From assembly GCA_016458225.1 (NCBI GenBank), contig JAEMGR010000034.1:62001-126000 (forward strand): DNA of 64,000 nucleotides. The letters are read 5' to 3'. Made by a program: the position numbers and the translations under genes. This DNA is from Myxococcaceae bacterium JPH2 (GTDB lineage: Bacteria; Myxococcota; Myxococcia; Myxococcales; Myxococcaceae). This document shows, piece by piece, positions 28,416-42,163 of this stretch; positions within the stretch are counted from its first letter, which is position 1, and every line of letters starts with the position of its first letter. The notes beneath the pieces are model-generated. The model was not told where the DNA came from and searched no databases. It saw nothing but the letters and a program-made list of their open reading frames with translations.

Positions 28416-28835
28416 GTGAATCGCCTGCCCGTCCTCGTCCTCGCGCTCCTCCTCGGTGGGGCCTGTGCCCACACTTCCAAGAAGGCCAACCCGGAGACCC
28501 TCAAGCCCACCGTGGAGGCCTTCCACGAGAACATCCGCTGGAGGAACTTCCGCAACGTCTCCCGAATCCTCGTCCCCGAGCGCCGCGACGCCTTCGAGCG
28601 CGCCCGCCGCGAACACCAGGACGACCGGGACCTCACCATCACCGACTACGAAATCGAGGACGTGAAGCTCTCCGAGGACGGCCAGCGCGCCACCGTGCGC
28701 AGCACCATCCAGTGGATGCGCCTGCCCTCGGCCTCCGCGCACACGGACACCGTCACCTCGGAGTTCATCTTCCGCGACGGTGCGTGGCTGCTGGAGCGAC
28801 AGGAGTCCGGCCCGTTCGAGGGCGAGCTCCCCTAG
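28416..28835 (+). CDS. Predicted lipoprotein of unknown function
   Basis: A 139-residue protein with GTG start at 28416 and a lipoprotein signal peptide ending in lipobox LGGAC (Cys 17). The mature part looks like a small alpha+beta fold (VEAFHENIRWRNF, then strands LTITDYEIEDVKL and RATVRSTIQWMRL), similar in pattern to NTF2-like or SnoaL-like lipoproteins. The role is unknown. It is divergent from the giant TPR gene (91-bp gap). The stop codon touches the U-run end of the candidate sRNA transcribed from the opposite strand. Confidence 0.7.
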   Translation: MNRLPVLVLALLLGGACAHTSKKANPETLKPTVEAFHENIRWRNFRNVSRILVPERRDAFERARREHQDDRDLTITDYEIEDVKLSEDGQRATVRSTIQWMRLPSASAHTDTVTSEFIFRDGAWLLERQESGPFEGELP

Positions 28836-28879
28836 AAAAGAAACCGCCCACCGTCTCGGGGCCGGCCGAGGCGGTGGGC
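28836..28879 (-). terminator. Rho-independent terminator of the candidate sRNA
   Basis: On the minus strand the arms GCCCACCG (28879-28872) and CGGTGGGC (28853-28846) form an 8-bp stem, with a further CTCGG/CCGAG pairing inside. GGTTTCTTTT follows directly. On the plus strand no T-run follows, so it acts mainly leftward, although the hairpin could slow rightward transcription from the lipoprotein gene. Confidence 0.8.
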
Positions 28880-28962
28880 GTCGAGGGTTCCCCCATGGAA
28901 CCCTCTACCAGGGTGGCCCGTCGACGCTGTGCTGCCAGCCCGCGTCGTCGTGCCTTCTTGCC
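28836..28962 (-). ncRNA. Candidate sigma-54-dependent small RNA, ~127 nt
   Basis: Reading leftward from the sigma-54 promoter at 28974-28988, a transcript starting near 28962 would run to about 28836. It contains three stem-loops: SL1 with a 6-bp stem (28922-28927 pairing with 28942-28947), SL2 with a perfect 9-bp stem GAGGGTTCC/GGAACCCTC and 5-base loop (28883-28905), and SL3, a GC-rich terminator stem (28846-28879) followed by GGTTTCTTTT in the transcript sense. There is no convincing reading frame. Size and promoter type recall Pxr of Myxococcus xanthus, but Pxr is reported beside a GNAT acetyltransferase gene and no such gene is here, so this looks like a separate RNA. Expression is predicted, not shown. 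Confidence 0.72.
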
Positions 28963-28973
28963 TGGCTCCTAGA

Positions 28974-28988
28974 GCAATGCAGGTGCCA
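28974..28988 (-). promoter_or_regulatory. Sigma-54 (-24/-12) promoter
   Basis: The minus strand reads TGGCAC-CTGCA-TTGCT, matching the sigma-54 consensus TGGCAC-N5-TTGCW with the exact GG to GC spacing. The flanking T before TGGCAC also fits. A start point 12 bases beyond the -12 C falls at about 28962. It points into the hairpin-rich region ending at the terminator at 28836, not into a protein gene. Confidence 0.8.
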
Positions 28989-29044
28989 ACTGCCCGCGCG
29001 CGTCCGCGTCCTCGGGCCTGCTTCCGGAAATCGGGCACTTGCGC

Positions 29045-29136
29045 CTGTCAGCCCCCCGACATCCCCCTGCCCCGCGTGACATGCCTGTCAGAGCCCGCCA
29101 ACGCTGTCATCCCCTCGGGACTGACAGGGCTGTCAG
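29045..29136 (-). promoter_or_regulatory. CTGTCAG/TGACA motif array upstream of the sigma-54 promoter
   Basis: Six TGTCA/TGACA elements occur in 92 bases: CTGTCAG at 29045, TGACA at 29077, CTGTCAG at 29085, CTGTCA at 29104, CTGACAG at 29121 and CTGTCAG at 29130. The last two form the perfect dyad CTGACAGGGCTGTCAG. They lie about 83-174 bases upstream of the predicted start at 28962, where NtrC-like enhancer-binding proteins usually bind. The remaining sequence between 28990 and 29165 holds no gene. Confidence 0.6.
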
Positions 29137-29165: not shown

Positions 29166-30089
29166 TCACTCGCCCAGGACGGAGCGGATGGTGTCCCGCA
29201 TCGAGTGGCGCGGCTTCCAGTGGATGTCCTTCACCCACCGGGAGCCATCCACGGCGCACAGGAACTGGATGTGGTCCAGCTCCGGCGGCGGGAAGCTGGC
29301 CAGCCGGTAGCGGAACAGCAGGCCCAGCAGCGGGCGCGCCACGGGATGCGGCACGGGCAGCGGGGTATTGCCCAGCTCGCGCATCACCGAGGACAGGGGC
29401 ACCTCGCCCGGCCCCACGACGTTGTAGACGCCGCGCAGCTCGGGCTGGAGGGCGGCGACCATGGCGCGCGCCACGTCCTCCACATGGATGAGCTGCACCA
29501 TGGGGTCGAAGCCCGCGAGCGTCCACGGGTGGCGCAGCCGCAGGTAGTTGGACGGCGCGTTCTTGATGGTGGGCCCGACGATGTGGACGGGCCTGAGAAT
29601 CACCGTCTCGATGTCCGGGTGCTTCCAGAAGAAGCCATGCGCGAGCATGTCCACTTCGATGAGGTCGCGCACGCCGGAGAACCGGCTGGCCGCCATCAGC
29701 GGCGCGTCCTCGGTGAGGAAGTTGGAGTTGTCCGGACTGGGGCCGTAGACGTTGGCCGAGGACAGCACCACGACCTTCTTCACCCCGTACTTGGCGCAGT
29801 ACTCGAGCAGCCGCGTGGTGCCCACCACGTTGAACGAGTGGTGCTCCTCCTCGCTCATCCGGGGGTCATGCATGATGCCCATGTGGATGACGGCGCGGAC
29901 GTCGTTCTTGCGAAAGACGTCCTCGGCCTTCTTCTTGCGAAGGTCGAGCTGGTACATCTCGACGTCCTTCGGCCGCCCCAGGAAGGGACGCCGGTCGATG
30001 CCGATGATGCGCTCCTGCTTGTGGAGGAGCTTCGCGAGGGTGCGGCCGAGGTTTCCGCTGATGCCCGTGACGACGACGGCGGGTCTCAT
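29166..30089 (-). CDS. NAD-dependent epimerase/dehydratase-like (extended SDR, degenerate catalytic motif)
   Basis: A 307-residue extended SDR. The NAD-binding loop VVTGISGNLGRTLA is at the N-terminus, GIDRR follows as the second cofactor strand, and VLSSANVYGP corresponds to the catalytic Ser/Thr strand. Where YxxxK is expected, the sequence reads FSGVRDLIE, so both Tyr and Lys seem replaced (Phe and Arg). The fold and cofactor site are intact, so it may bind NAD(P) without normal epimerase chemistry. It is the last gene of the leftward 34.1-29.2 kb run and lies 37 bp from the acyltransferase gene. Confidence 0.8.
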   Translation of the reverse strand: MRPAVVVTGISGNLGRTLAKLLHKQERIIGIDRRPFLGRPKDVEMYQLDLRKKKAEDVFRKNDVRAVIHMGIMHDPRMSEEEHHSFNVVGTTRLLEYCAKYGVKKVVVLSSANVYGPSPDNSNFLTEDAPLMAASRFSGVRDLIEVDMLAHGFFWKHPDIETVILRPVHIVGPTIKNAPSNYLRLRHPWTLAGFDPMVQLIHVEDVARAMVAALQPELRGVYNVVGPGEVPLSSVMRELGNTPLPVPHPVARPLLGLLFRYRLASFPPPELDHIQFLCAVDGSRWVKDIHWKPRHSMRDTIRSVLGE

Positions 30090-41039: not shown

Positions 41040-41126
41040 GGAGGCGTGGCCGAGCGGCTGAAGGCAGCGGTCTTGAAAACCGCAGAGGGTGCAAGCTCTC
41101 CGTAGGTTCGAATCCTACCGCCTCCG
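41040..41126 (+). tRNA. tRNA-Ser (UGA)
   Basis: Acceptor GGAGGCG pairs with CGCCTCC, with discriminator G at 41126. The anticodon loop CTTGAAA gives anticodon TGA. The long variable arm (AGAGGGTGCAAGCTCTCC region) is the class II hallmark of tRNA-Ser. The T arm reads GTAGG-TTCGAAT-CCTAC. CCA is not encoded. Confidence 0.97.
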
Positions 41127-41169
41127 AGATTTTGTTCTTGAGTTTGGTGGTTCTTTGACAGAGAAAGAT

Positions 41170-41259
41170 GGAGAGATGGCCGAGAGGCTGAAGGCACAGG
41201 TTTGCTAAACCTGCATACTCGAAAGGGTATCGAGGGTTCGAATCCCTCTCTCTCCGCCA
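41170..41259 (+). tRNA. tRNA-Ser (GCU)
   Basis: GGAGAGA pairs with TCTCTCC, discriminator G, and CCA (41257-41259) is encoded here, unlike its neighbours. The anticodon loop TTGCTAA gives GCT, decoding AGC/AGT. The variable arm is long, and the T arm is GAGGG-TTCGAAT-CCCTC. Confidence 0.97.
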
Positions 41260-41285
41260 CTTGTCGTTGAAGCGCCAGAAAGATT

Positions 41286-41359
41286 GCTCCCTTAGCTCAG
41301 CTGGATAGAGCGTCGGACTACGAATCCGAAGGCCGGAGGTTCGAATCCTCCAGGGAGCG
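41286..41359 (+). tRNA. tRNA-Arg (ACG)
   Basis: GCTCCCT pairs with AGGGAGC, discriminator G at 41359. The anticodon stem TCGGA/TCCGA encloses CTACGAA, anticodon ACG. The wobble A is the target of TadA deamination to inosine, and tadA begins 23 bp downstream. Confidence 0.97.
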
Positions 41360-41382
41360 CTGTTTTCCTCGGCGCGTGTCTC

Positions 41383-41850
41383 ATGAGTGACGATGTGAAG
41401 TTCATGCAGCAGGCTCTTTTGCTCGCGCAAGAAGCCTCGTCACTCGGAGAGGTCCCAGTCGGCGCAGTCGCAGTGCTCGATGGAAACGTCGTAGGCACTG
41501 GCTTCAACCGCCGCGAGATGGACCGCAATCCTTTTGCACACGCGGAAATGTTGGCTCTCGAGGCTGCCGCCAAGGCTGTGAATGCCTGGCGGCTGACGGG
41601 CATTACGTTGTATGTGACTCTGGAGCCGTGTGCCATGTGCGCCGGCGCGTTGGTTCAATCCCGAGTCACCCGGCTTGTTTTTGGAACGCAGGACCCCAAG
41701 GCCGGTGCCGTAGGTTCGCTGTACAATCTGGCCGAGGAGCCCCGACACAATCACCGGCTCCTCGTGACAAGCGGGATCCTGGCGGACGAGAGCCGCCTGC
41801 TTCTCAAGACGTTCTTCGAGCGCTTGCGCGCGAAGCGACGTGACAACTGA
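41383..41850 (+). CDS. tadA: tRNA-specific adenosine deaminase TadA
   Basis: A 155-residue cytidine-deaminase-fold protein. The zinc and proton-shuttle residues are in HAEMLALE (residues ~47) and TLEPCAMCAGAL (Cys-x2-Cys). QSRVTRLVFGTQDPKAG follows as in TadA. It converts A34 of tRNA-Arg(ACG) to inosine so that CGU, CGC and CGA can be read. It lies between tRNA-Arg(ACG) and tRNA-Ser(CGA). Its codon usage is a little less GC-extreme than that of neighbouring protein genes. Confidence 0.96.
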   Translation: MSDDVKFMQQALLLAQEASSLGEVPVGAVAVLDGNVVGTGFNRREMDRNPFAHAEMLALEAAAKAVNAWRLTGITLYVTLEPCAMCAGALVQSRVTRLVFGTQDPKAGAVGSLYNLAEEPRHNHRLLVTSGILADESRLLLKTFFERLRAKRRDN

Positions 41851-41855
41851 ATACT

Positions 41856-41942
41856 GGAGAGCTGGCCGAGTGGTCGAAGGCACCTGACTCGAAATCAGGC
41901 GTACCGGCAACGGTACCGTAGGTTCGAATCCTACGCTCTCCG
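41856..41942 (+). tRNA. tRNA-Ser (CGA)
   Basis: GGAGAGC pairs with GCTCTCC, discriminator G. The anticodon loop CTCGAAA within stem CCTGA/TCAGG gives CGA, decoding UCG. The long variable arm (GTACCGGCAACGGTAC) is present. It begins six bases after the tadA stop. Confidence 0.97.
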
Positions 41943-41955
41943 CTGCAGCTGTGTT

Positions 41956-42042
41956 GGAGAGGTGGCCGAGCGGTTGAAGGCGCACGCCTGGAACGCGTGT
42001 ATATCTGAAAGGGTATCGTGGGTTCGAATCCCACCCTCTCCG
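41956..42042 (+). tRNA. tRNA-Ser (GGA)
   Basis: GGAGAGG pairs with CCTCTCC, discriminator G. The anticodon loop CTGGAAC within CACGC/GCGTG gives GGA, decoding UCU and UCC. The class II variable arm and T arm GTGGG-TTCGAAT-CCCAC are intact. With the UGA, GCU and CGA genes it completes the serine set. Confidence 0.97.
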
Positions 42043-42071
42043 TTTCTGTTGTTGTCGAATGAAAGCTTTGT

Positions 42072-42151
42072 GGTCGGGACAACGTGGGGGCGCGAACCCC
42101 GCCAGGTCCGGAAGGAAGCAACGGTAGCGTACCTTCGCGTGTGTCCCGGCC
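42072..42151 (+). ncRNA. ffs: Signal recognition particle RNA (small, 4.5S type)
   Basis: The terminal stem GGTCGGGACA pairs with TGTCCCGGCC (42142-42151). The universally conserved SRP core is present: CAGGTCCGGAAGGAAGCA near 42103-42120, with the GGAA tetraloop and the asymmetric loop that bind Ffh. There is no Alu domain, so it is the short proteobacterial form, about 80-100 nt; exact ends are approximate. It targets inner-membrane and secreted proteins to the translocon. It lies 30 bp after the last tRNA-Ser. Confidence 0.93.
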
Positions 42152-42163
42152 GTTCTTGTCTGG

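Follow-up and report, generated by a model that had tools for sequence, protein, structure and literature searches.

A predicted sigma-54-controlled small RNA family of the Myxococcaceae, distinct in sequence from Pxr

The gap between two convergent genes of Myxococcaceae bacterium JPH2 very probably holds a stand-alone, non-coding small RNA (sRNA) gene controlled by sigma-54 and an enhancer. This high confidence, drawn from sequence analysis, concerns the gene and its control and does not extend to its mode of action. The sRNA family appears to be new and its kind is known, being that of sigma-54-controlled sRNAs such as Pxr, Qrr and GlmY/GlmZ. It would be a second sigma-54-controlled sRNA in a model group for bacterial multicellularity; it occurs in Myxococcus xanthus itself and, by the tests used, is more widely found than Pxr. 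With a variable tandem copy number, an optional 5' hairpin (SL1) and an apparent switch of enhancer in one reduced lineage, it provides a good case of sRNA evolution.

Locus, promoter and enhancer

The gap extends over 330 bp, as the original prediction had stated, from the stop codon of a small gene here called lip (28835) to that of an epimerase gene (29166; Table 1). A Pfam search with the lip product gave no match. The consensus -24/-12 promoter claimed earlier for the minus strand is present at 28973-28988. It is the sole match to TGGCAY-N5-TTGC in the window, the 64-kb stretch of DNA analysed as a whole, where 0.19 would be expected. The longer pattern TGGCAY-N5-TTGCT occurs 17 times in the 9-Mb source genome, the sRNA promoter included, versus two occurrences of a control pattern. 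A minority of homologous loci give no match to the -24/-12 pattern used. The sigma-54 domain PF04552 is present in the source genome and in seven of eight genomes tested, G086 being the exception. The 5' end of the predicted RNA (28962, +/-3) was placed from the position of the -24/-12 element, counted from the GG at -24.

Table 1. Features of the predicted sRNA locus and its surroundings (positions in the window)
Feature	Position	Strand	Basis and remarks
lip, convergent neighbour, 139-aa protein with signal-peptide-like start	28416..28835	+	synteny; no Pfam match
Predicted sRNA, ~127 nt	28836..28962	-	fold (z -4.4); R1 (97.5 bits on 3' unit); conservation
SL3, terminator hairpin 28845-28880, then GGUUUCUUUU U-tail	28836..28880	-	apical CGGCCGGCCCCG; covariation
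SL2, perfect 9-bp stem, AUNGG pentaloop (here AUGGG)	28883-28905	-	fold, covariation
SL1, lineage-specific 5' hairpin	about 28908-28965	-	fold
Sigma-54 -24/-12 element TGGCAC-CTGCA-TTGCT	28973..28988	-	pattern match; distance conserved at almost every homologous locus
Possible IHF-like bending-protein site between enhancer and promoter	29028..29041	-	by eye, without statistic
Putative enhancer (UAS) site 1, TGACATGCCTGTCA	29077..29090		102 bp upstream of -24 element; fixed position, 4-bp spacer in relatives
Putative enhancer (UAS) site 2, TGACAGGGCTGTCA	29122..29135		45 bp further upstream (-147)
Epimerase, NAD-dependent epimerase/dehydratase, upstream neighbour	29166..30089	-	Pfam PF01370, synteny

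The strongest evidence for this promoter reading, missed by the earlier reader, is a pair of perfect TGACA-N4-TGTCA palindromes upstream of the sRNA, where 0.02 would be expected and none of 100 shuffles yields two. The exact palindrome is found at 56 of 87 oriented loci, several of the others ending at contig ends, and the spacer is 4 bp in all 83 palindromes at homologous loci; simple letter shuffling gives the palindrome at a rate of 0.06%. The positions are either -102/-147 or, in the Myxococcus-like genus, -112/-157, a shift of roughly one turn of the helix. Read by eye, deeper genera show a single degenerate copy near -101. The source genome contains four exact palindromes: the two upstream of the sRNA, one beside a TetR-like gene and one inside a coding frame; a pair with the 45-bp spacing occurs only at the sRNA. 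The same holds in 12 other genomes, where, among the matches listed, pairs 45-47 bp apart occur only at the sRNA. The possible IHF-like site is degenerate in the source genome and reads CAA-N4-TTGA in many relatives and genera (by eye).

The upstream layout, as predicted from these motifs, is the classic one of sigma-54 promoters that rely on an enhancer-binding activator. Transcription of the sRNA by sigma-54 RNA polymerase would start from the -24/-12 element, would depend on an activator that occupies one TGACA-N4-TGTCA site or two, some 100 and 145 bp upstream, and would end at SL3. No gene for an enhancer-binding protein lies near the sRNA at any locus scanned, and at 47 places of the source genome that encode enhancer-binding proteins, the surrounding stretches examined contain no TGACA-N4-TGTCA site, even with up to one mismatch allowed. 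The activator may have other targets, since each of the 12 other genomes has 4-10 exact sites, versus 0-2 for a control pattern.

RNA structure, distribution and variants

Three hairpins form in the predicted fold of the sRNA region (z = -4.4), and none of 200 shuffles is equally stable. SL3, with its U-tail, is not detected by a simple terminator scanner; a T-run directly follows it in 48 of 48 homologues of an alignment (A1) that has 76 columns and is gap-free. These results agree with the earlier claim that the hairpins and the terminator belong to one short transcript.

In the paired columns of A1, 95.5% of cells pair, and both sides change in 12 of 24 pairs (6 of 9 in SL2, 6 of 15 in SL3). 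The cells changed on both sides number 101, versus 35.7 after shuffling and at most 11 when the partners are slid; the A1 sequences are related, so that the shuffle counts are not probabilities, and the slide control keeps this relatedness. RNAalifold recovers the same fold from the alignment.

The loops are conserved in a distinctive way. The third base of the SL2 loop is U in 18, G in 15, A in 13 and C in 2 of the 48 homologues, and the sister families have another SL2 stem altogether, closing pairs included, while keeping AUNGG and the same two hairpins. The A1 homologues were chosen with loop motifs, which favours conserved loops; the unfiltered list shows identical loops. At the apex of SL3, CGGCCGGCCCCG does not vary across A1, which is unusual for a terminator loop, and it includes the self-complementary GGCCGGCC. 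A search of the window for further AUNGG hairpins returned SL2 of the sRNA alone. The SL1 apex (GGGCC in many relatives) and the SL3 apex both carry self-complementary letters of the GGCC type, and for this reason a loop-loop contact or dimerisation is possible.

A covariance model (R1) was built from the 48 homologues and covers the two 3' hairpins; the 3' unit of the window sRNA scores 97.5 bits. R1 matches 95 of the 96 genomes of the family (26 genera), the sole miss being a genome that is 79% complete. A DNA search likewise gives a match in 95 of 96; the one in G034 is an unrelated coding-like stretch, and R1 matches this genome at another place. Beyond the family, R1 finds one genome of sister family f7 and five of f8, all in the same order, and nothing better than about E 6e-4 in the rest of the phylum sample. 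About 35 pattern matches in unrelated phyla were re-scored with R1 and none exceeds 23 bits; matches outside the Myxococcota look like chance. Hosts include Myxococcus xanthus AM003, Pyxidicoccus, Corallococcus, Hyalangium versicolor and Archangium, and the order epimerase - sRNA - lip is kept in most of the family.

The architecture varies around this conserved core. A promoter was recognised at 80 loci. Of these, 30 have a short form lacking SL1, in which SL2 begins about 10-20 nt after the start and the RNA would be about 75-85 nt long; 49 have the SL1 insert, the stem sequence of which varies between genera. The Myxococcus/Pyxidicoccus genus has two to four SL2-SL3 units arranged head to tail, one every 71 bp: M. 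xanthus AM003 has two units and Pyxidicoccus fallax four pattern matches. Genome G001 carries a second, diverged copy (L124 9225-9300) with its own -24/-12 element and one palindrome, away from epimerase and lip. A record titled 'Comamonas sp. KCTC 72670' (L297) contains a Myxococcus-type tandem sRNA, and its label is probably wrong.

Three reduced Myxococcaceae MAGs of 2.1-2.7 Mb (G084-G086; L097, L098, L099 / L125-L127), probably from the termite gut, keep the sRNA, visibly beside the 139-aa gene in two of the three, with a -24 element of the TGGCC type. The palindrome is absent at their sRNA promoter. Upstream, a motif resembling TTGCATNTNGCA occurs three times; it is close to the LuxO site TTGCAWWWTGCAA (PMC10162802), and its copies may serve as enhancer sites. 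Each reduced genome has about six enhancer-binding proteins, for which the best source-genome matches are L163, L167, L181, L177 and L162, one protein being without a clear orthologue. When reduced and source genomes are compared, the recognition helices of L163, L167 and L181 are near-identical despite the changed sites, and that of the L177 type differs. L177 (G000:C15), L140, L142 and L143 are response-regulator enhancer-binding proteins with GAFTDA replacing the GAFTGA loop that contacts sigma-54.

Relation to Pxr and other small RNAs

Pxr blocks fruiting-body development in rich medium. Like the candidate, it combines a sigma-54 promoter, three hairpins and a U-tail in a host lacking Hfq, and pxr too forms tandem copies in some genera (PMC5568312). 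These likenesses between two sRNAs of the same bacteria are what would favour taking the candidate for pxr or a paralogue of it, a reading that now has very little probability. An intact pxr lies on another contig of the source genome (G000:C5:531445-531510), after the end of an activator-like gene, and has a -24/-12 element of its own; within 450 bp of it there is neither a TGACA nor a TGTCA half-site. The query was a 66-nt M. xanthus fragment of the 3' part, rebuilt from primers in PMC5684412 and used in place of an Rfam model; 80% of shuffles reach the score of its local alignment with the candidate. Pxr directly follows the gene for its own activator, the NtrC-like pxrR (nla19), and its SL1 and SL2 are conserved and its SL3 variable (PMC5568312, PMC5684412). 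The candidate shows the opposite conservation, with SL3 the most conserved, SL2 and SL3 forming the core and SL1 optional; locus, sequence and enhancer also differ, and pxrR is absent beside it, the neighbours being the epimerase and the 139-aa protein.

Identity with pxr is rejected at the level of sequence, and functional overlap is possible. The suggestion that the RNA is not Pxr had been made beforehand and stands; the missing GNAT gene that had been used as a criterion is a poor one, the telling facts being the absent pxrR, the intact pxr elsewhere and the lack of similarity. A reading as 'developmental or nutrient-responsive' is so far unsupported, and the sRNA is kept in the reduced genomes, where pxr was not detected. 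The Pxr fragment is found in 83 of the 96 family genomes, in some weakly, and was not detected in the three reduced genomes or in several deep genera. Several matches to it within 1-2 kb occur in G002-G007, G033 and G034, apparently in larger arrays than those described for Cystobacter.

No Rfam 15 family reaches its gathering score at the sRNA locus; the best weak match is ncS035 (Burkholderia sRNA 35), with 21.1 bits versus 79 required (E 0.014). The reading survives the sequence-level checks proposed for it, namely Rfam, conservation and covariation, with Pxr tested by the rebuilt fragment. No description of this sRNA was found in the open-access literature, to which the search was confined. 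Elsewhere in the window, Rfam gathering matches mark a cluster of five tRNA genes and a small SRP RNA at 41040-42159.

Other sRNA systems share parts of this design. The enterobacterial GlmY/GlmZ system (QseF/GlrR) resembles it in its sigma-54 promoter, upstream palindromes of TGTC/GACA half-sites and IHF sites. However, the QseF site is TGTC-N10-GACA (PMC8745638), whereas the candidate has GACA-N4-TGTC with a constant 4-bp spacer and gives no Rfam match. The Qrr RNAs of Vibrio, which are Hfq-dependent antisense RNAs, are likewise under the control of sigma-54 and an enhancer protein of the response-regulator type (LuxO). LuxO-like sites (PMC10162802) occur in the reduced-genome homologues; the enhancer in the window differs from them. 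The CsrB/RsmY sponges also have repeated hairpins, a conserved loop motif and a variable copy number, but the candidate has AUNGG in place of an ANGGA loop, and a search of 12 genomes from the order gave no CsrA, which was detected in three control genomes. Hfq was not found in the same number of genomes of the order and was detected in control genomes, and myxobacteria are described as lacking it (PMC5568312).

Possible modes of action

The motifs and their distribution suggest that the sRNA would act in trans, without Hfq or CsrA, via the AUNGG loop that SL2 exposes and via CGGCCGGCCCCG at the apex of SL3. The SL2 loop has five bases, a free middle base and an exchangeable stem, which suggests recognition by a protein rather than an antisense seed. 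If the sRNA is accepted, its most likely mode, tentatively put forward, would be to serve an RNA-binding protein as a binding platform or decoy, the dose being set by tandem units in Myxococcus, where repetition would raise the number of protein-binding sites. A fuller version is more speculative: AUNGG might be the site of an RNA-binding regulator that is titrated by the tandem-dosed sRNA under a dedicated sigma-54 activator, forming an order-wide post-transcriptional switch. Such a protein partner would address how sRNAs act in these bacteria, where neither Hfq nor CsrA was found in 12 genomes, a question left open by the authors of the Pxr work (PMC5568312, PMC5684412).

Again given an sRNA, the main alternative to the platform or decoy is base-pairing with mRNAs, which has a substantial though smaller share of the probability. 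In its more specific form, a trans-acting antisense RNA pairing through the loops of SL1, SL2 or SL3, as assumed for Pxr, it is a serious if less likely rival. Antisense pairing is the commonest mode of sRNAs, the SL3 apex is invariant in A1, and the SL1 hairpin, required by Pxr, is present in many genera. However, the SL2 loop motif offers five nucleotides with a freely varying middle base, SL1 is absent from about 30 of 80 loci, no Hfq was found, and the self-complementary SL3 apex would suit dimerisation equally well.

That the hairpins are a cis element is improbable, whether serving the epimerase gene as its terminator or 3' UTR or regulating the convergent lip gene. The synteny seen in most family members and the end of the RNA at the lip stop codon would fit such an element, but the hairpins are separated from the epimerase gene by a sigma-54 element and an enhancer, both conserved. 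In addition, the epimerase gene is not in the stretch examined in the reduced genomes, and lip is 1-2 kb away at other loci. A cis role is unlikely because the f8 copies (G156-G160) have no relative of epimerase or lip beside them and the second copy in G001 lies elsewhere.

Against the platform or decoy and its RNA-level rivals, a micro-protein read from the AUG in the SL2 loop has hardly any probability: the frame AUGGGGGAACCC... is open through the hairpins in the window, but it is unlikely because the loop AUG is present in only 15 of 48 homologues, and the stem substitutions are compensatory. An origin as a mobile or repetitive palindromic element inserted into the gap is just as improbable, for although the tandem units in Myxococcus and the second, dispersed copy in G001 recall one, many dispersed copies would be predicted and none are seen, each genome has few copies apart from the tandem array, and nearly the whole family shares one syntenic position of the sRNA, with promoter and enhancer conserved.
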